29,575 nt of DNA, from positions 1 through 29,575 of the IMG/VR virus record IMGVR_UViG_3300027659_000152; one strand, written 5' to 3'. This document shows positions 9,634 through 19,586 of the stretch, piece by piece. The stretch is from a virus. Position 1 is the first letter of the stretch. Every line of letters starts with the position of its first letter. Made by a program: the position numbers and the translations under genes. Below the pieces are notes generated by a model. It worked only from the letters and a program-made list of their open reading frames with translations, did not search any database and was not told the origin of the DNA.

Positions 9634-10133
9634 GCGAGCACAAGACGCACACGGCGCTGGCACGGGCGCTCAATGTTTCATCGACCGCTATCCGCAACTG
9701 GCAGCGCGAATACGATGACGCGCCGAAAACATGGACCGAGGCCGAGTGGCGCGACTTCATCGACCGGCACGGGCTCGGCCAGGCTGGACCGCGCAAGTCT
9801 AGGCGACGCGAGGAGCTCCTGGTTGAGAAGCTGGCGAGCGAAGTGCGGCTTAATCAAATCAAGATCCAGCAGGCCGAGGCCAAGCTGATCCCAGCCGAGG
9901 ACGTGGACAACTACCTGCTGTTCCTCGCGGCACGGGTAAAGTCAGCGATGTATCAGGGTTTCACCACCGAGCTGCCGCCCAAGGTCGCCGGCCTAGATGT
10001 GAGCGACATCCGCCGGCTGGCACGAGAGCACGCGGATCTGGTCTGCGTCTCCATGCAGCACGCGCTCGAGGACTGGAAGACCGAGCAGAACGCCAGGCGC
10101 AAGGCAGCCGCTCAGGAAGCGCGCAGCGCATGA
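9630..10133 (+). CDS. terminase small subunit, Nu1-like
   Basis: 167 aa from GTG 9630 at a GTGA overlap. Residues 6-27 (HTALARALNVSSTAIRNWQREY) form a winged HTH for recognising the packaging site. A helical region with LASEVRLNQIKIQQAEAKLI (70-89) and the IPAEDV/LLFLAARVKSAM part follow the plan of lambda gpNu1-type subunits, where LIP-x-E-x-V precedes the oligomerisation helices. It recruits the large subunit to the genome end. Strong support comes from the overlapping GpA-type gene immediately downstream. Confidence 0.75.
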   Translation: MSEHKTHTALARALNVSSTAIRNWQREYDDAPKTWTEAEWRDFIDRHGLGQAGPRKSRRREELLVEKLASEVRLNQIKIQQAEAKLIPAEDVDNYLLFLAARVKSAMYQGFTTELPPKVAGLDVSDIRRLAREHADLVCVSMQHALEDWKTEQNARRKAAAQEARSA

Positions 10134-11929
10134 GCCTCGAGGTTCTCCAAGGATGGCGCCGCGGGTGGGCGCTGCCAGATCGCCGGCCGATCCACGACTG
10201 GGCCCGGGATTTCGTTCAGCTCGGCGGAGGCTACGCACGCCAGGGCGCCTTTGACATCCGCACCTGCCGGCACCTGCTCGAGCCATTCGAGGCCGTCGCC
10301 GACGAACGTGTGCGCGAGGTGACATGCCGCGCCGCGATCCAGACACTCAAAACGCTCTTCGTGGAGATCTCCAGTCTTTGGGCGATTGCCAACGAGCCAG
10401 GGCCGATCATGTGGACGCAGCAGGACGACGAGAGCGCGGCCGAGCACGTCAAGGGACGGTATCGCAATCTGCTGCGCAACTGCGAGCCGGTGGCGCGCCT
10501 GCTGCCGAAAAACAAGCACGATGCCGCGACCTGCGAGATCTACTTTGGCGATTTCTACCTGATCATCAACGGCGCCAATCTAAACAACCTGCAGAGCAAA
10601 TCGATACGCTGGAAGCTTAACAGCGAGTGCTGGCTCTGGAAGCAAGGGCTGCTGACACATGCTCGCCGGCGCGTCTCGGCCTACGCCCGCGACGGAATCA
10701 GCAAGATTCTAAACGAGAGCCAAGGATCTCACGCGGACGACGATTTTGACCGGCTTTGGCATGAGGGGACGGCGCAGATCTGGTCTGTCCAGTGTTTCGG
10801 CTGCCAGCGCTTTGTGCCGCTCGAGTTTTTCGGCCGCGCCGCGGACGAGCCGGCAAAGCGCGCCTGCGTGATCTGGGACGAAGGCGCACGAAAGGAAAAC
10901 GGCATGTGGGACGAGCAGCTTGTGCGCAACTCGACGCGCTGGCTTTGCCCCCACTGCGGTCACGAACACGCCAACAGCGCCGCCACCAGGGCACGCTGGA
11001 ACAGCACCGGCCGATACTCGGCGCCGCGAGCTGATCGCGACGGGAAGCACCGATCCTTTAACTGGAACGCGATTTTGGCCGAGGACATGGGCCAGCTGGC
11101 GGTTGAGTTCCTGCAGGCGGGCGAGTTCAAAAAACGCGGCCAGATCAACCCGCTGCGCGATTTCTACATGCAGCGGCTGGCGTTGCCGTGGCGCAACGAA
11201 GAGGCCCAGCTAAACCGGACGACGGTCGAGCTCCGCGGAACATACACGCTCGCTGACATCCACGCCCGAGGTCGCGAGAAGATCGAAAACGAAGCGCGCC
11301 GCATGATGACAATAGATCGCCAGCGCGACCACTTCTGGGCCGTGGTGCGTGCATGGAAAAGCGACGGCGGCTCACAGATGCTTTGGCGCGGCAAACTCAG
11401 CACGACCGAGCAAGCCGAGGGAATCCGGCAGCATTTCGGCGTCGAGCAGCAGCTCTGTTTCGAGGACGCGCAGTTCAGCACGGCGCAAGTTTACGAGGAC
11501 TGCATCCGCTACGGTTGGACCGCGCTCCACGGCAGCGGAGATGATTCATTCGTGCACATCCGGCCAAACGGCCAGAAAGTGCAGAAATTCCATTCCAGCA
11601 TCAAACAGACCCAAGTGCCCGGCGGTTATGCGCGTTACATGTTTTGGGCATCGGATCCGGTTAAGGACGTGCTCGCGGCACTGGTCGCCGGCAACTCGCA
11701 CCCGTGGGAATGCGGCGCCGATCACGGCGAAGAATACGCACGCCATCTCCGCGGCGAGGTTAAGCGCGAGCGAGTCAGCAAGAGCACGGGCCGCAGCGAG
11801 TGGCGCTGGACGAAGACCGGACCGAATCACATGTGGGACTGCGAGGCCATGCAGGTGGCCGTGGCTCTCGCGCTGCAGTTGCTACCATCTCCCGAAAAGA
11901 GCGAAACAACTACAAGCACTGAAAAATAA
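10130..11929 (+). CDS. terminase large subunit, GpA family
   Basis: 599 aa, overlapping the small subunit by ATGA. The N-terminal ATPase has a Walker A-like AAIQTLKTL (68-76) in which the usual glycine before Lys is leucine, and SECW (166-169) at the expected catalytic Glu. A four-cysteine zinc site sits at CFGC (222-225) and CPHC (273-276). The nuclease domain shows TIDRQRD (Asp396), FED (Asp446) and HMWDCEA (Asp570), the three acidic positions of the RNase H-like fold. It packages genomic DNA into proheads and cuts it. The length is typical for GpA-like enzymes. The lambda-type enzyme suggests cohesive ends, but this cannot be seen here. Confidence 0.88.
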   Translation: MSLEVLQGWRRGWALPDRRPIHDWARDFVQLGGGYARQGAFDIRTCRHLLEPFEAVADERVREVTCRAAIQTLKTLFVEISSLWAIANEPGPIMWTQQDDESAAEHVKGRYRNLLRNCEPVARLLPKNKHDAATCEIYFGDFYLIINGANLNNLQSKSIRWKLNSECWLWKQGLLTHARRRVSAYARDGISKILNESQGSHADDDFDRLWHEGTAQIWSVQCFGCQRFVPLEFFGRAADEPAKRACVIWDEGARKENGMWDEQLVRNSTRWLCPHCGHEHANSAATRARWNSTGRYSAPRADRDGKHRSFNWNAILAEDMGQLAVEFLQAGEFKKRGQINPLRDFYMQRLALPWRNEEAQLNRTTVELRGTYTLADIHARGREKIENEARRMMTIDRQRDHFWAVVRAWKSDGGSQMLWRGKLSTTEQAEGIRQHFGVEQQLCFEDAQFSTAQVYEDCIRYGWTALHGSGDDSFVHIRPNGQKVQKFHSSIKQTQVPGGYARYMFWASDPVKDVLAALVAGNSHPWECGADHGEEYARHLRGEVKRERVSKSTGRSEWRWTKTGPNHMWDCEAMQVAVALALQLLPSPEKSETTTSTEK

Positions 11930-11935
11930 GACGCC

Positions 11936-13279
11936 ATGAAAGTTCTGTTCTCCAATCCACCCTGGTGGGATGTCGACCTGAAGACACAGCAGCTGTTAAT
12001 CGGAGTGCGCGCCGGATCGCGCTGGCCGTTCACCAGGTATTCCGTGCATGCTCCGGGCGAGTTCAGACACGGTGGCTATCTGCCGTTCCCGTTCTTCTTA
12101 GGAAGCGCAGCGGCTCGGACGAAGGCGACACTGCCGGACGCGACGATTGAGATGCGCGACTCAATCGCCCGCGGCGAAAGCTACCAGCAGTTCTTCGACG
12201 CGGTGCTTGCCGATCCACCCGATTGGGTCGTGCTCGAGACGGCGACCGCCGCGTGGGTCCACGACGAGAAGGTGATCGATTGGTTCGCGGCGATGACAAA
12301 GGCCCAGATTATCCTTTGCGGTCCGCTCGACATTTCCAAGGCCGACGAGATTCTCGGACGGCATCGGAACATCGCGGCGATCGTTCAAGGCGAGTACGAC
12401 AAGCAAGTGCTGCGCGTGATCCGCGGCCAGCGTGGCGTTATCGCGCACGATCTGCTGACTGTTGGCGAGATGGATAATCTGCCGTATCCGATCCACGACG
12501 AAGTGGCGGTGGGCAATTATTGGGACGCATGCCCGAAAGGCCAAACCGCGCCGCAGCTGCAGTTGATCACGAGCCGCGGGTGCCCTTACAAATGCATTTT
12601 CTGCGTCTGGCCGGCAGTGATGACCGGCAACGATCCAGACGGCACCAGGGCGCGCACCGTGCGTTGCCATTCCCCCGAGTGGGTCCGAGGCGCCATCAAA
12701 ACGCAGATCGACGATGCATGGGCGAAGGGTGTGCGCTACAAGAGCATTTATTTGGACGACGACACATTCAACCTTACCGAGAAGCACACCCGGCAGATCT
12801 CGCAGGTGATGAAGGAATTTGGGCTTCCCTGGTTCGCGATGTGCCGTGCCGATACGGTGAAAGAGGAGACCTGGAAGCTCATGCTCGAATGCGGATGCAA
12901 GGGGGTTAAGCTCGGATTCGAGAGCGGATCCCAAACCGTGATCGATAAGATCATCAACAAGCGGCTCAACTTGGCGAAGGCTGCAGACACCGCGAGGATG
13001 CTGCGCAACATGGGCATGAGCGTCCACGGCACGTTTACGGTTGGACTCCCGGGCGAAACCAAGCAGCAGCAGCAGGAGACGCTCGATTACATCAAGATGC
13101 TTTACGAAACCGGCGGTCTGGATACGCACCAACTGAGCGGCACCGCTGAGATTGAAGGCACACCGCTGCACACCCTCAAGGTGACGGGATCTCTCGAAAA
13201 ATACGCTTCCGCGAAAATCGACGATGCCTACGTTGCCAACCCAGACGGCGCCGCGAAGCTGCGCGAGATGAAGCTATGA
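11936..13279 (+). CDS. radical SAM enzyme with B12-binding-like N-terminal domain
   Basis: 447 aa. Residues 1-165 have the Rossmann-like plan of cobalamin-binding domains (KVLFSNPPW; GGYLPFPFFLGSAAARTK; IIL-CGPL; IAAIVQGEYD), but I see no DxHxxG cobalamin ligand motif. The radical SAM core begins with C216PYKCIFC223, the CX3CX2C cluster motif, then a YLDDDTFNLT segment, a GCKGVKLGFESGSQ segment and TFTVGLPGET, all typical of the B12-type branch. Such enzymes methylate, or otherwise modify, unreactive carbons of sugars, lipids or peptides. Its place between terminase and portal, followed by a methyltransferase and a glycosyltransferase-like gene, suggests a modification cassette. Substrate unknown. 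Confidence 0.85.
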   Translation: MKVLFSNPPWWDVDLKTQQLLIGVRAGSRWPFTRYSVHAPGEFRHGGYLPFPFFLGSAAARTKATLPDATIEMRDSIARGESYQQFFDAVLADPPDWVVLETATAAWVHDEKVIDWFAAMTKAQIILCGPLDISKADEILGRHRNIAAIVQGEYDKQVLRVIRGQRGVIAHDLLTVGEMDNLPYPIHDEVAVGNYWDACPKGQTAPQLQLITSRGCPYKCIFCVWPAVMTGNDPDGTRARTVRCHSPEWVRGAIKTQIDDAWAKGVRYKSIYLDDDTFNLTEKHTRQISQVMKEFGLPWFAMCRADTVKEETWKLMLECGCKGVKLGFESGSQTVIDKIINKRLNLAKAADTARMLRNMGMSVHGTFTVGLPGETKQQQQETLDYIKMLYETGGLDTHQLSGTAEIEGTPLHTLKVTGSLEKYASAKIDDAYVANPDGAAKLREMKL

Positions 13280-13812
13280 CCGCACTTCAAAAGCTATTTG
13301 AGGAACGCGCCGCATTCCACGGGCACAAGGACATGCTGCCGCACATGCACCAGCTGCGCCAGCTCGCGGCTGGCTGCAGGACGGCAACGGAATTTGGGGT
13401 GCGCACCGGGCAAAGCACGATTGCGCTGGCCGCAGGTCTCGAGGCCGGCGGCGGCGGCGAACTGGTATCATACGATATCAGCGAGCCATTGTTTGACTTC
13501 CCAGAGGCACCGACCGTGACGTGGAAGTGGCACCGGGCCGATACGTCAAAAATGGATCTGATCGAGCAGACGGATCTGCTCTTCATCGATACGCTGCACA
13601 ACGCCGCGCAAGTTGAAGCCGAGCTCAAACACGCCGTCATGGTGCGCCGCTACATCGCGATGCACGACGTTTACAAATTCGCTCAGGACGGGGAGAGCGG
13701 CGAAGGCATCATCAAGGCAATTCTCGAGTTCCTCGCAGATTGCCCAGAGTGGGGCGTGCTCCAATATTACCACTCAAACTGGGGTCTGCTGATCCTAAAC
13801 CGCATTGCCTAA
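13276..13812 (+). CDS. class I SAM methyltransferase (Methyltransf_24/TylF/CmcI-like)
   Basis: 178 aa, ATGA overlap with the radical SAM gene. Motif I is TEFGVRTGQSTIALA (38-52), with Glu39 and the glycine turn binding SAM; SYDIS (65-69) supplies the acidic residue for the ribose; LLFIDTLHNAAQVEAEL (101-117) and IAMHDVYKF (127-135) match the D-x-x-H and H-D signatures of the Methyltransf_24 group. That group includes sugar O-methyltransferases and cephalosporin hydroxylase-like proteins. It is short, so the core fold may lack extra lid elements. In this context it could methylate a sugar attached by the glycosyltransferases, which is inference. Confidence 0.75.
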   Translation: MTALQKLFEERAAFHGHKDMLPHMHQLRQLAAGCRTATEFGVRTGQSTIALAAGLEAGGGGELVSYDISEPLFDFPEAPTVTWKWHRADTSKMDLIEQTDLLFIDTLHNAAQVEAELKHAVMVRRYIAMHDVYKFAQDGESGEGIIKAILEFLADCPEWGVLQYYHSNWGLLILNRIA

Positions 13813-13815
13813 TCT

Positions 13816-14517
13816 ATGGGATCCGTAATCATCATTGCCGGCCACATGCGCACATGGAAAACGTGCGCGCACACGTTCAACTGGCACGTCGCTAGGCACC
13901 TGCCCAAGCCGCTGCACTTTTACATCTCGACGGTGCAGGACGAAGACGCCGACGACTGGAAGATCACGCAGCAGCTGTTCCGGCCGAAAACGCTGATCAG
14001 CAAGGTCGAGCCGAGCCAACCGGATCTGCCAGAACCAACCGAGCCGGTGCGGTTCGAACCATACGCTCGCAGCGTGCCGATGCAGGCAGTTCTGCGCCAG
14101 CTCTGGCAGCTCGAGCAGGGCTGGAAGCTCTACACCGACCACCCGGTGAGCGACGTGGATCTGTTCGTTCGTGTGCGGCCGGATTTGTTCTTTCACTCAT
14201 TCGATCAGACCTACACGCCTATCATCAACGAAGCTCTGACCCCTTGGTGGGGGCGATTCGGCGGCATTAACGATCGATTCGCGATTATGGGCGGGATCGC
14301 AGCAGCCGAGTACTTCCAGACCTTCAGCAACATGCCGGCACTGCTCGAGGATGGGTGCCCAATTCACCCGGAAAGTCTCGTCAAGGGATCGCTGCGTAAA
14401 CGCTGGTGCATCGTTCGCGATAACCTGCGGGTCGAGTTTTCCACGCTGCGCAAGACGGGCGAGATGCGGCCGCCCGAAATCTCGGCAATAGACATCGCTC
14501 ACGCCGGGCTACGTTGA
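13816..14517 (+). CDS. glycosyltransferase-like protein (RxRPDL family)
   Basis: 233 aa, starting 3 nt after the methyltransferase stop. It opens with VIIIAGHMRTWKTC, like the GG-x-R-T-F openings of a poorly studied group of glycan-synthesis proteins, then has VRVRPDLFF (118-126) at the place of the metal-binding region, and WWGRFGGINDRFAIMGG (144-160), another hallmark of that group. No classical DxD pair elsewhere. The family is usually linked to capsule or O-antigen sugar transfer. Here it would be the third member of a SAM/sugar cassette between terminase and portal. The fold call is from motif memory; activity not shown. Confidence 0.6.
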   Translation: MGSVIIIAGHMRTWKTCAHTFNWHVARHLPKPLHFYISTVQDEDADDWKITQQLFRPKTLISKVEPSQPDLPEPTEPVRFEPYARSVPMQAVLRQLWQLEQGWKLYTDHPVSDVDLFVRVRPDLFFHSFDQTYTPIINEALTPWWGRFGGINDRFAIMGGIAAAEYFQTFSNMPALLEDGCPIHPESLVKGSLRKRWCIVRDNLRVEFSTLRKTGEMRPPEISAIDIAHAGLR

Positions 14518-14535: not shown

Positions 14536-14814
14536 ATGAAAATTCTCGTCTCCATTCTGCTGCGTCAAGCGAGGCGGAACAACGCGGCCAATCCGCGAAA
14601 GTGGCTCGAAGACCTCCAGGCCAGCAAGTGGACCGACATGAGCGCGCAGAACGGCCAGATCGTTGGGACTGCGCTGAACGGAAAATCCATCACGGTGCAG
14701 GCTCTCCCGGGCACCACGATCGCCGACCTGATCATGGCGAGCGAACTAGCCATCCAGACGATTGACGCAGGGTTTACTGCGCCAGTGTCTCAGACCGCCG
14801 GATTCTTACGCTGA
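14536..14814 (+). CDS. small protein at the gpW position, possible head-tail connector
   Basis: 92 aa. It lies just before the portal, a place where lambdoid phages often encode gpW-like head-joining proteins. The sequence has a basic helical start (LLRQARRNNAANPRKWLEDL) and then a beta-rich GQIVGTALNGKSITVQAL with a C-terminal helix. The resemblance to gpW is only in size and place, since the order of elements differs, so I call it by context only. The start at ATG 14536 lies 18 nt after the preceding stop. Confidence 0.55.
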   Translation: MKILVSILLRQARRNNAANPRKWLEDLQASKWTDMSAQNGQIVGTALNGKSITVQALPGTTIADLIMASELAIQTIDAGFTAPVSQTAGFLR

Positions 14815-14819
14815 CGACT

Positions 14820-16652
14820 ATGCCGACGCCACTCCCGCAACGATTCCGCGCAGCGCTGGGTGCTCTATTCGACGCCACTAACCGCAAGGAAATCGTGCGG
14901 CGACCGCTCGAGGTTCGCACGATCGGCAGCATCTCAAGTGAGGTAAATTCCACCGACCGGGCGCAGCTCCTGAGCGATTCCCGCAAACTATACGCCAATC
15001 TGGGGCCGGCCAAGGGCGCAATCGACGCGAAAGCCATGTATGCCGTCGGCCGCTCCTGGCTACCGAAATTTGAGGGCGCCGATCAAGCCTGGGGCGAAAT
15101 CGCACGAGAATGGCTGCTTAATGAGTGGTATCCGATCGCCGACATCAGCGGTCGCGACTTCCAGACGAGTCTATTCCTCGCATCCGTTGCGGTGGATCGC
15201 GACGGCGATGTGGGCGCCATCCTGACCGAGTACGAGACCGCTTTCCCGGCGATCCAGCTGATCCCCAGCGAAGGTATCCACAATCCGAGCAGCGACAAGC
15301 TCGACCGTGACGGATTCCTGCTGAGTGGACCGTACCAAGGGCTGCGCGTCATCGATGGGGTCGTGATCAACCCGCAAGGCCGGCCGGTCGCCTTCTACGT
15401 CGAGGAAGAGGCGCAGGCGCCCGGCAGCGAAGAGGAAATGCCCGAGGTCCGCGAATACGTCACCGCCCGCGATATGATGCTGCTGGCCGAGCCGGCCTGG
15501 ATTAACCAGTTCCGCGGTCTCCCGGGCTTCGCGCATGCCATCCTGGATCTTAAGGATCTGCGCACGGTCCAGGGGTATGAAAAGATGGCGTCTGCGCTGG
15601 CGTCCAGCATCGGCCTGATCGAGTACAACGAGAGCGGGCTGGCAGATACCAGCGATCCAGCGGTGGCGCTTTCCGGCGCTCCCTACGTAGGCCAGGATGT
15701 CGCCGCCAAGGAGTTTTTCGGAGGCATGGTTCGCCACTTCAAGGCCGGCAGCGGCTCAAAGCTCGAGGCATTCAAAAACGACCGGCCAGGCGATGCTTGG
15801 CAGAAATTCATGGACCGGCTGCTGCGCAACGCAATGGCCGGCATCAACTGGCCGTTTGAATTGGCCTGGGACATCTCCGCGCTGGGCGGAGCCAATACCC
15901 GCTTTGTCATCTCGACCGCAATGCGCAGCGTCGAGGATCGCCAGGATCTTCTAAAGCCGTTCGCTCGCCGAGCGGTCGGCTACGCGGTCGCGAAGGCGAT
16001 GAAAAATGGCCGGCTGCCGGCGAATCCTGACTGGTGGAAATGGTCGTTCACGATGCCGCCGCGGCTTACGGTTGATTTCGGCCGCGATGCCGCCGCCCAG
16101 CGCGAGGACTATTTATCCGGCATCATCAATCTCAGCGACATCTGCGCAGAGCGTGGCATCGATCTCAAGAGCCACATCGCTGGCCGCGCCGCTGAAAACC
16201 AAGCACTTGAGGAGGCCGGGCTGCCTGTTCCTGGGCTCCGCGGCGATCTTTCGCCAACTGCTAACGAGCCGATCCCGGTGCCGGTTCAGATTCCGAGCGA
16301 CGCCGCCGCACTCTCCCAGGCTGCGCTGCAGGTGGACACGGCGCCTACTGAGGCGATGCGCGAAGAGGCCGAACGCGGCTTGCGCTGGCGCGAAGAGTTC
16401 AACCGAGGCGGCACTGCCGTCGGCGTGGCACGCGCTAGGGACATCTCCAACGGGCGGTCACTATCCAACGAGACGATTTTCCGCATGAAATCCTTTTTCC
16501 GCCGGCATGAGGTTGATAAGCAGGGCGAAGGATTTAACGCTGGTGAGCCCGGCTATCCATCCGCTGGCCGCATCGCGTGGGCGCTCTGGGGCGGGGATCC
16601 GGGCTATGCCTGGGCCGAGCGCAAGGTGCTTGAGATTGAGCGCGAAAGTTGA
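14820..16652 (+). CDS. phage portal protein, lambda family, with extra C-terminal domain
   Basis: 610 aa. Residues 1-480 follow the lambda-family portal plan (SRKLYANLGPAKGAIDAKAM; the AIQLIPSEGI, GVVINPQGRPVAFYV and PGFAHAILDLKDLRTVQGYE segments; FARRAVGYAVAKAM). Twelve copies should form the DNA entry/exit ring of the capsid and bind the terminase. From about residue 510 there is a distinct domain: RGLRWREEFNRGG, VGVARARDISNGR, SFFRRHEVDKQGEGF, GYPSAGRIAWALWGGDPGYA. I know this as a small conserved phage/prophage domain, usually on other proteins or alone. The fusion to a portal is unusual in my experience. Starts 5 nt after the preceding stop. Confidence 0.87.
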   Translation: MPTPLPQRFRAALGALFDATNRKEIVRRPLEVRTIGSISSEVNSTDRAQLLSDSRKLYANLGPAKGAIDAKAMYAVGRSWLPKFEGADQAWGEIAREWLLNEWYPIADISGRDFQTSLFLASVAVDRDGDVGAILTEYETAFPAIQLIPSEGIHNPSSDKLDRDGFLLSGPYQGLRVIDGVVINPQGRPVAFYVEEEAQAPGSEEEMPEVREYVTARDMMLLAEPAWINQFRGLPGFAHAILDLKDLRTVQGYEKMASALASSIGLIEYNESGLADTSDPAVALSGAPYVGQDVAAKEFFGGMVRHFKAGSGSKLEAFKNDRPGDAWQKFMDRLLRNAMAGINWPFELAWDISALGGANTRFVISTAMRSVEDRQDLLKPFARRAVGYAVAKAMKNGRLPANPDWWKWSFTMPPRLTVDFGRDAAAQREDYLSGIINLSDICAERGIDLKSHIAGRAAENQALEEAGLPVPGLRGDLSPTANEPIPVPVQIPSDAAALSQAALQVDTAPTEAMREEAERGLRWREEFNRGGTAVGVARARDISNGRSLSNETIFRMKSFFRRHEVDKQGEGFNAGEPGYPSAGRIAWALWGGDPGYAWAERKVLEIERES

Positions 16653-17723: not shown

Positions 17724-18590
17724 ATGGCTAATTCCCTGAGCTCCTCCCTGGTCCTCGACACCCTCGCCGAGGCCACCCTTACGACGCTGGGCAATCGCCT
17801 GGCTCCCCTCCGCGCCTTCAGCACGGACTTCACGACCGACATGATGAACCAGAACGCCTTCGTTCAGGTTCGCAAGGCCAACGCGGCCGGCGCGGTCCAG
17901 ACCAACCCGACGAACTTCGAGACGGGTGACACCAATGTCACCAACGTCGCTGTGCAGGTTAAGCACTACTCCAAGAGCTACAACCTCTCGAGCCAGGAGC
18001 TTAACCAGGGCTTCCGTCTCGAGCAGCTCGCGCAGATCAACGCGCAGGTCTTGGCTAACAAGATCATCGACATCGCTCTGGCTCCCATCACGTCGACGAA
18101 CTTTGCGAACAACGTTACCGTTGCGCAGGCTTCGTTCTCTGCCACCAACGCCAAAACCCTTTGGGGCTTCGTTGCGAAGAGCTCGCTGCGTCACCTGATC
18201 TTGGATGGCACTGCCTTCGCGCAGCTCCTCCCGACCAGCGGCGAGAACTTCCAGCTGCCAACCGGCGGCTCCTCGAGCTATCGCCCCGGCGCCTATGGTT
18301 TCGACGGCATCATTCTCAACACTCGTTGGGACGGTGCCGGCACGAACATCTACGGCTTCGCGGTCGGACCCGAGGCCGTTGCGGCCGCGGCTGGTCTGCC
18401 GATGATCGACCCGGGCGTGGCTTCCATGCTGGCCGGCTCGCGCACCCTGACGCTGCCTGATCTCGGCATCTCGGTCCAGCTCAACACCTGGGGCTCGCTC
18501 TCCAGCCGTGCGGCCTGGGCTTCGCTGGATGTCATGTTCGGTGCGGCTCTCGGTGACAACACCGCCGGCGCGCACGTCAAGACTGCCTAA
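17724..18590 (+). CDS. major capsid protein
   Basis: 288 aa, directly after the protease-scaffold. The sequence is Asn/Ala/Ser/Thr-rich and beta-rich, with LAPLRAFSTDFTTDMMN, AVQVKHYSKSYNLSSQELNQ (77-96), LANKIIDIAL, YGFDGIILNTRW and a C-terminal WGSLSSRAAWASLDVMFGAA. I read it as an HK97-fold major coat protein from position and pattern; it has no cysteine. Codon use appears narrower than in its neighbours, as expected for strong expression. No cleavage site for the protease is obvious. Downstream are two hairpins and then a glycosyltransferase gene. Confidence 0.8.
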   Translation: MANSLSSSLVLDTLAEATLTTLGNRLAPLRAFSTDFTTDMMNQNAFVQVRKANAAGAVQTNPTNFETGDTNVTNVAVQVKHYSKSYNLSSQELNQGFRLEQLAQINAQVLANKIIDIALAPITSTNFANNVTVAQASFSATNAKTLWGFVAKSSLRHLILDGTAFAQLLPTSGENFQLPTGGSSSYRPGAYGFDGIILNTRWDGAGTNIYGFAVGPEAVAAAAGLPMIDPGVASMLAGSRTLTLPDLGISVQLNTWGSLSSRAAWASLDVMFGAALGDNTAGAHVKTA

Positions 18591-18597
18591 TAAACTC

Positions 18598-18659
18598 CCG
18601 GCCACTGCTCGCGGCCGGTTTATCGTGTGCTACCCAGCTCCTCGCAAGGGGGGCTGGGT
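18598..18659 (+). terminator. two hairpins after the capsid gene, possible attenuator
   Basis: Two inverted repeats follow the capsid stop. The first is CCGGCC/GGCCGG (18598-18603 and 18613-18618, 9-nt loop) followed by TTTAT. The second is ACCCAG/CTGGGT (18632-18637 and 18654-18659), extended inward by CTCCT pairing with AGGGG around a CGCA loop, with two unpaired G. Neither has a long U-tract, so partial termination or mRNA 3'-end protection of the capsid transcript is more likely than full stop. Confidence 0.5.
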
Positions 18660-18692: not shown

Positions 18693-19586
18693 ATGAGCAA
18701 CCAAACAGCAGACGCGCCGGCTGCGGCCGGCAACGCATTAACAGACCACGCTGCGCAGGTCGCAGCGGTCTCAAGCGCCACTGAGCCGGCGCCTATGGTA
18801 TTCGACGAGTCCGATCGGATCGTGATCGGCACGCCATGCTACGGCGGCAACGTCAAAATGGGGTTCATGACCTCATACAACGAGACGCTGCTGCACATCC
18901 GCATCCGCGTGCGGAACGAGGACGGCGAAGTTGAGCTGCAGCCGCTGGTGGCTGAGTCCATGTTTCTGGACAAGGAAAGCCACATCGACCGCGCCCGAAA
19001 CAAGATCGCGGCCAAGTTTCTTGCGACCAGATACAACTGGCTGCTCTACATCGACGCCGATATCGTTTTCCCGGGCACCGCGGTGGCGAGGCTCTGGCAG
19101 CATGGCATGGTGGGCCACAAGATCGTTACGGCACCCTACGCGCTAAAGGGCGTGGTGCCCCAGTTCGCGATCAATGGGCTAGCTGGAGCCAAGATCGACG
19201 AACGCGGGCTGGTCGAGGTAGTGCATGCCGGCACAGGCTTCATGCTGATCCATCGCAGCGTGTTTGACGCGATCCGCGATGCCGGCTTGGCGCCCGAGTA
19301 CAATCTCGGCAGCAATGATCCCGATGTTCACACGCTCAAGACCTCCAGGGCTTACTTCAAGTCGGGCGTGCGCGAAGTGATGCCGGGCAATCCCATCTGG
19401 CTCTCCGAGGATTACATGATCTGCCATGAATGGCGCAGCCTGGGCGGCAAGATCCACACCGACACCAAGGTGGCACTGAGCCACATAGGCGATCTTACCT
19501 ATCCGGCGAATCCCAAGGAAATCTTCGCCGCCGTGGCCGAGCTCCGCCGCATCAAGCATCACGATTGCCCAGCCACGCTGGTTTAG
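18693..19586 (+). CDS. GT-A fold glycosyltransferase next to the capsid gene
   Basis: 297 aa from ATG 18693; the frame extends left but would use the hairpin region. The first 40 residues are a disordered Ala-rich leader. The GT-A core shows VIGTPCYGG (44-52), HIDRARNKIAAKFL (97-110), LLYIDADIVF with the DxD metal site Asp121-Ala-Asp123, VTAPYALK (145-152), HAGTGFMLIHRSVF (178-191) and LSEDYMICHEW, the acceptor-side acidic motif of GT2-like enzymes. It should transfer a sugar from a nucleotide donor. Placement between capsid and head-closure genes suggests a virion target, possibly capsid glycosylation. No membrane segment, so cytoplasmic. Confidence 0.8.
   Translation: MSNQTADAPAAAGNALTDHAAQVAAVSSATEPAPMVFDESDRIVIGTPCYGGNVKMGFMTSYNETLLHIRIRVRNEDGEVELQPLVAESMFLDKESHIDRARNKIAAKFLATRYNWLLYIDADIVFPGTAVARLWQHGMVGHKIVTAPYALKGVVPQFAINGLAGAKIDERGLVEVVHAGTGFMLIHRSVFDAIRDAGLAPEYNLGSNDPDVHTLKTSRAYFKSGVREVMPGNPIWLSEDYMICHEWRSLGGKIHTDTKVALSHIGDLTYPANPKEIFAAVAELRRIKHHDCPATLV

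Follow-up and report, generated by a model that had tools for sequence, protein, structure and literature searches.

A radical SAM enzyme, a methyltransferase and a glycosyltransferase encoded among phage head genes: a probable virion glycosylation cassette

The DNA analysed here (the window) is a phage contig of 29,575 bases from IMG/VR. It begins with genes for recombination and replication (RecT-like, exonuclease VIII-like, RusA, Prim-Pol/helicase), followed by the terminase gene; after these come a run of three genes, a gene for a small protein of ~92 amino acids, the portal gene, two more head genes, a further glycosyltransferase gene and the tail genes. The genes of the run and the neighbours relevant to them are as follows, with the abbreviations used below.

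10130..11929, + strand: terminase large subunit (TerL), the upstream flank; GpA_ATPase, 3.7e-17; phrog_15, 7.8e-38
11936..13279, + strand: radical SAM enzyme with a B12-like Rossmann N-domain (rSAM); Radical_SAM, 7.3e-15
13276..13812, + strand: class I SAM methyltransferase, Methyltransf_24 (MT); PF13578, 1.3e-7
13816..14517, + strand: glycosyltransferase of predicted GT-A fold, DUF7796-like family (GTl); AlphaFold2 model against the PDB
14536..14814, + strand: small gene (~92 aa), gpW-like head-tail joining protein as judged by position only
14820..16652, + strand: portal protein, the downstream flank; Phage_portal_2, 9.4e-29
17724..18590, + strand: probable major capsid protein, a possible glycan acceptor; iterated HMM link to P8625 gp11
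18693..19586, + strand: second glycosyltransferase, with DxD (GT2), the fourth member of the set; profile match to A197, 3.7e-4

The start codon of rSAM is an ATG 6 nt past the TerL stop, the start of MT overlaps the end of rSAM via ATGA, and GTl begins after a 3-nt gap; the boundaries of the three open reading frames, the overlap and the gap are exactly those given in a first-pass annotation of this DNA. That annotation also placed the run between the terminase and portal genes, which is correct, although the run does not abut directly on the portal gene, since the ~92-aa gene intervenes. Further downstream, the reading frame of GT2 opens at 18627 and has an ATG at 18693, and the capsid candidate was linked by iterated HMM searches to gp11 of P8625, which is annotated as P22 coat protein. 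Compared with their relatives, rSAM, MT and GTl have dN/dS values of 0.05-0.21 (about 0.05 for rSAM against close relatives), similar to those of the portal and TerL, and thus the three are real genes. Among isolates found by TerL, Verrucomicrobia phage P8625 comes closest, at 22% identity, and it contained no match to the cassette genes. Relatives of the portal protein are present in 22/273 genomes of the order to which the Opitutaceae genome G001 belongs; therefore, a Verrucomicrobiota host for the phage is plausible.

The features by which the radical SAM superfamily is recognised, i.e., the cysteine motif, the Pfam match and the fold, are all found in rSAM. The motif is C-P-Y-K-C-I-F-C (Cys216, Cys220 and Cys223), with CxxxCxxC kept in 20 of 20 family members; the score against Pfam Radical_SAM is 56.0 bits (cut-off 29.5; 7.3e-15); and the model (mean pLDDT 87.5) best matches the fold of AprD4 (6fd2; Z 30.0 over 387 residues, 22% identity), with MgmA (Z 26.3), OxsB (Z 24.4) and TsrM (Z 21.5) as other matches. 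The model has an N-domain of the B12-binding type that aligns with those of OxsB and TsrM, one of the features by which cobalamin-dependent class B enzymes are recognised. The cobalamin motif DxHxxG is absent from the N-terminal 205 residues in all 20 family members; it is also missing from some known class B radical SAM enzymes. The top NCBIfam match is HpnJ (TIGR03471; 1.5e-40, 139.5 bits), below its cut-off of 577.6 bits, the AprD4 model (NF033070) gave 71.3 bits against a cut-off of 500, and the curated NCBIfam cut-off is not reached for any characterised radical SAM family. The enzymes nearest to rSAM in fold and in family have sugars of small molecules or lipids as substrates. A viperin-like antiviral role was considered and rejected (the viperin fold gave Z 14.4, versus 30.0 for AprD4, and there was no match to the PADLOC viperin models); the single PADLOC match of rSAM was PDC-M51A (4.4e-9).

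MT matches Methyltransf_24 (PF13578) with 32.9 bits, against a gathering score of 26.3 (1.3e-7), and its profile matched no solved structure. GTl has no match in Pfam, PHROGs or NCBIfam. When its AlphaFold2 model (mean pLDDT 85.8) was compared with the PDB, all 50 best matches listed were glycosyltransferases (GT-A), the best among those listed being human COLGALT1 (Z 12.8 over 192 residues, 3.9 Å), with Mnn9 and BoGT6a at Z 12.0 each. Judged by this modelled fold, GTl is a GT-A glycosyltransferase, and transferase activity is predicted for it. The motifs GxxR, DxD, RxRPD, DRFA and HPE are retained in nearly all members of its family, including those with only about 26% identity; near the expected site there is a conserved RxRPD, not a plain DxD, and D42-x-D44 is separate. 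The Pfam family DUF7796 is matched by 9 of the 15 members of the GTl alignment (best 6.4e-15), and the GTl of the window itself gives no match to it. Matches of GTl to Bcl-X (phmmer against the PDB) and to Tonsoku-like (profile search) were dismissed as chance. GT2 carries DxD, its profile matches the glycosyltransferase A197 of STIV (2c0n; 3.7e-4), and its homologues match the Anp1 and GT2 families of Pfam, weakly. The first-pass annotation had recognised, from motifs, a radical SAM enzyme with a B12-domain-like N-terminus, a Methyltransf_24-type methyltransferase and a glycosyltransferase-like protein: the first identity agrees with Pfam and with the B12-like Rossmann N-domain of the model, the second with the Pfam score, and the third is borne out by the predicted GT-A fold, despite there being no family match.

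Among close relatives of the window phage in which the interval is covered, GTl is present in 22/22, whereas the other two genes vary: rSAM and MT are both present in 11, rSAM only in 4, MT only in 7 and neither in 0/22, a zero that is not significant at n = 22. Thus, GTl can be seen as the core and rSAM and MT as optional additions. An apparent absence of rSAM from L038 and L044 proved to be an artefact of ORF picking: both have the gene, which overlaps TerL. Wider portal relatives, 57 in number, served as a control; in most of them TerL is followed by the ~92-aa gene and then the portal gene, and neither GTl nor rSAM was found (0/57). Hence, the three genes have been inserted between TerL and the ~92-aa gene. 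The independent gain and loss of rSAM and MT in close relatives, together with the HNH-endonuclease-like ORFs that fill the same interval in a few other relatives (L026, L064, L070), is what could be expected if unrelated accessory genes had gathered behind the terminase because insertions are tolerated there. This explanation is hardly likely, and the finding of a conserved neighbourhood largely refutes it: the same genes occur together elsewhere (after the major capsid gene) in unrelated phages, are found in fusions and are under strong purifying selection.

The first-pass annotation had proposed a search for the three genes as a conserved neighbourhood in other phages, and the outcome is positive across several unrelated phage lineages. 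A scan with the core of rSAM (the stretch around and after Cys220, chosen because a first alignment of distant rSAM proteins had no usable conserved stretch) yielded 44 viral contigs. With contigs selected by this core alone and then clustered at 80% identity, so that GTl was no selection criterion, a GTl homologue lay within 6 kb of rSAM in 14/14 clusters with usable flanking DNA, and a gene of the Methyltransf_24 type lay near rSAM in 13/14; two clusters in which the contig ends just past rSAM are left out of the 14. As a control, GTl was found in 7/68 loci from a scan for MT. The set often lies directly 3′ of the major capsid gene (MCP), accompanied by extra glycosyltransferases (GT) and sometimes by a nucleotide-sugar epimerase. 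Typical arrangements are MCP-gp131-GT2-rSAM-(84 aa)-GTl (L200), MCP (HK97-type)-gp131-GT2-(62 aa)-MT-GTl (L119), MCP-(TPR/GT2-type GT)-MT-rSAM-GTl-epimerase-GT-GT (L209) and TerL-rSAM-MT-GTl-portal-protease-MCP-GT2 (L216). The first-pass annotation had counted the glycosyltransferase at 18693 as part of the same system, and the placement of GT2 within the sets of L119 and L200 agrees with this. In 16 of the MT-scan loci, MT is the C-terminal half and a glycosyltransferase domain (phrog_14945, 5.8e-11) the N-terminal half of one protein, which in L132 is encoded two genes past MCP. Since the loci represent at least three portal/capsid types, the association is not accounted for by shared ancestry of whole phages; loci of one and the same type, however, are related to each other and should not be counted as independent. 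Members of the MT family are also found where neither a glycosyltransferase nor a head gene is nearby, e.g. after a helicase-like gene; a “442-aa capsid” next to MT in many loci proved to be helicase-like, and the MTs of those loci are therefore not head genes. All of these loci are metagenomic fragments, with ORFs called and HMM labels assigned by script and then spot-checked; the capsid, glycosyltransferase, methyltransferase and epimerase assignments were checked with Pfam and PHROGs, and pattern-based scans miss divergent members. Among 50,697 isolate phage records there was no match to MT or GTl, and Streptomyces phage SF3 was the sole isolate matching rSAM (26.7%).

This neighbourhood also bears on the idea that rSAM and MT act directly on side chains of virion proteins, as in RiPPs or the methylation of MCR, with the glycosyltransferases being unrelated morons. 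The second-best fold match of rSAM is indeed the MCR glutamine methylase MgmA, and RiPP enzymes are among its weak NCBIfam matches; however, the top matches by fold and by family, AprD4 and HpnJ, respectively, both act on sugars, and the constant presence of GTl near rSAM in the 14 clusters, the GT-MT fusions and the sugar-nucleotide enzymes of the same cassettes leave such direct peptide chemistry only a very slim chance.

In a scan of contigs from bacterial genomes, 79 loci encoding rSAM were found, among others in Azospirillum, Pelagibacteraceae, cyanobacteria, Magnetococcales, Skermanella and Verrucomicrobiota. The neighbours are mostly NAD-dependent epimerases (12/78) and glycosyltransferases, and most of these bacterial relatives sit in general polysaccharide loci. 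GTl adjoins rSAM in three Opitutaceae; in the two loci with upstream DNA, i.e., two genomes of one family, the order is flagellin-rSAM-GTl, near a probable flagellar cap gene. GTl is present in 4/273 genomes of the order of G001, and the bacterial form is therefore rare in that order. That rSAM relatives are common at loci of the polysaccharide type in Pelagibacteraceae, Azospirillum and cyanobacteria is consistent with a cassette that alters the surface of the host (LPS or capsule sugars) during infection, thereby blocking superinfection or the rebinding of progeny, with the site in the late operon being a matter of timing only. Phage glycosyltransferases have often been interpreted in this way, e.g. 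in pelagimyophages (PMC7029224). We regard such a role as unlikely, since neither the sequences nor the models of the cassette revealed a membrane-spanning glycosyltransferase or a flippase, and a protein acceptor fits better with a set that sits among head genes in phages of several unrelated types and next to flagellin in Opitutaceae.

Taking into consideration the co-occurrence, the GT-MT fusions, the epimerase and extra glycosyltransferases and the order flagellin-rSAM-GTl, the joint function of the genes as glycan chemistry is strongly supported, in agreement with the first-pass proposal that they together make and methylate a sugar, and it is very probable that the cassette acts on a glycan. 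The best explanation, which we consider rather likely, is that rSAM, MT and GTl, together with GT2, form a phage cassette for protein O-glycosylation that tailors a sugar on a virion protein. Because the same enzymes adjoin capsid genes in phages and flagellin in bacteria, both encoding highly repeated surface proteins, we infer that the acceptor is a protein, and probably one of the virion; that it is specifically the capsid protein, to which the position of the genes points, is a more tentative proposal, as the genes may be transcribed together with head genes for the sake of late expression and not because of their target. A glycan on DNA, by which phage bases would carry sugar and methyl groups against restriction, has the faintest chance of being the product. 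Glycosylation of phage DNA is known, e.g. as reported for Shewanella phage Thanatos (PMC12838424); against this stand the bacterial flagellin context, the action of the fold and family relatives of rSAM on small-molecule and lipid sugars, and the 30 proteins of the window, among which Pfam revealed no thymidylate-synthase-like protein, hydroxymethylase or other enzyme of base hypermodification.

In the virion glycosylation model, GTl and/or GT2 would work in the cytoplasm with nucleotide sugars of the host and assemble a short glycan on residues at the surface of a structural protein of the virion, for which the capsid protein encoded in the same operon is the likeliest candidate. No gene for nucleotide-sugar synthesis was identified in the window, so the donors must come from the host. 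rSAM would alter a ring carbon of the sugar by a radical reaction such as deoxygenation, epimerisation or ring rearrangement, and MT would methylate the sugar; these two would be optional tailoring enzymes, used singly or together, with GTl and GT2 as the constant core. The nature of the sugar, the order of these enzymatic steps and the radical reaction are what we infer within the model. Perhaps, GTl of the DUF7796-like family, Methyltransf_24 and an AprD4/HpnJ-like radical SAM enzyme are a new protein-glycosylation module that puts a radical-modified rare sugar on a repeated surface protein encoded next to it, i.e., the capsid in several unrelated phage lineages and flagellin in Verrucomicrobiota. 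This wider proposal is possible rather than probable; if true, a glycan produced by radical chemistry would be common to surface proteins of phages and bacteria.

Glycosylation of virions has been shown for few phages, and its association with methyltransferases is already known; the radical SAM step and the parallel between capsid and flagellin appear undescribed. A description of the rSAM-MT-GTl set was not found in the open-licence PMC literature, an absence which is not proof that none exists. With a recognisable module that accompanies capsid genes across several uncultivated lineages, virion glycosylation could be predicted from sequence and tested, and the radical SAM step would add a sugar chemistry unreported for viral particles in the open-licence PMC literature searched. 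The cassette reading would also give the DUF7796-like family a function, and the Opitutaceae with flagellin-rSAM-GTl are a possible cultivable way in.

Several known systems invite comparison. In mycobacteriophages (Che8, cluster O), glycosyltransferases encoded beside an O-methyltransferase are reported to modify capsid and tail tube proteins (Freeman et al. 2023, as cited in PMC11600133 and PMC11256854). These phages and the window phage have in common that they encode glycosyltransferases together with a methyltransferase; however, a radical SAM enzyme, present in the window cassette, is not mentioned there, and the glycosyltransferase genes of Maravista are located close to the 3′ end of the genome, whereas the window cassette lies among head genes. 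A197 of STIV, which the GT2 profile matches, is a GT-A enzyme encoded by a virus, and glycosylation of the capsid protein (B345) by it, in the cytoplasm and with donors from the host, has been proposed (PMC10551542). STIV is, however, an archaeal virus of a different kind, with a single enzyme and no methyl or radical tailoring described.

For rSAM, the closest solved fold over the full length is that of AprD4, the radical SAM 1,2-diol dehydratase of apramycin, which acts on an amino-sugar, in that it deoxygenates paromamine together with a partner reductase (PMC5461906). The cluster spacing of AprD4 is CX3CX3C, whereas alignment gave CX3CX2C, not the AprD4 type, for the rSAM of the window, and no AprD3-like reductase was identified in the window. 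HpnJ, the best NCBIfam match albeit below its cut-off, takes part in forming bacteriohopanetetrol cyclitol ether and works after a glycosyltransferase, converting a glucosamine glycoside into a cyclitol once HpnI has attached it (PMC12583986); its substrate differs in being a lipid glycoside. By analogy, action of rSAM on a sugar already attached would fit both precedents. Lastly, the cassette can be compared with bacterial flagellin glycosylation islands. The neighbours in phages are terminase, portal and capsid genes, and no Maf or nonulosonic-acid gene was identified there; what the two have in common is an enzyme set that adjoins the gene for a surface protein, as in Opitutaceae, where rSAM and GTl directly follow flagellin.

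The cassette glycosyltransferase, GTl, has similar genes in two genomes (L311 and L312) from the order of the Opitutaceae genome G001. In L311 the neighbouring gene resembles a sugar nucleotidyltransferase (MNVIITMAGEGSRFSEIGIPEPKHLI), and the layout in L312 is the same; this resemblance suggests a link between the GTl-like genes and sugar nucleotides. Glycosyltransferase-methyltransferase fusion proteins are encoded in L132 (4890-6065), two genes downstream of the major head protein, and at 15 similar loci.

In wider relatives of the phage group, a protein of approximately 740-775 amino acids with a GT2-like N-terminus is encoded immediately 3′ of the capsid gene, the position held in the window by GT2, its second glycosyltransferase.

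Proteins with a GT2-like N-terminus:
L048 7431-9752
L085 11095-13332
L088 4246-6471

The terminase-portal junction of other members of this wider group holds HNH-endonuclease-like open reading frames, and in the relative L023 (9002-11221) the portal homologue is in two segments with approximately 330 bases between them, a break that is possibly an insertion.

HNH-endonuclease-like open reading frames at the terminase-portal junction:
L026 4672-5346
L064 1786-2616
L070 2077-2802

Four phage homologues of the radical SAM enzyme carry in-frame, intein-like inserts, located immediately before the second cysteine of the catalytic CxxxCxxC and following the pattern CLAGD.LVNTVEGM...VLV.N|C.

Radical SAM homologues with intein-like inserts:
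L013 4650-6485, with an HNH-like endonuclease region
L222 2386-4596, likewise
L223 6936-8678, short form, without this region
L226 1245-3098, likewise short

By size, the 718-amino-acid radical SAM homologue in L224 (6537-8693) could accommodate a similar insert.

The sole match to the radical SAM protein of the window in an isolate phage is that of Streptomyces phage SF3 (L027 10001-10537; 26.7%), which adjoins a thymidylate kinase gene and a NUDIX gene, a neighbourhood that differs in context from the cassette of the window.
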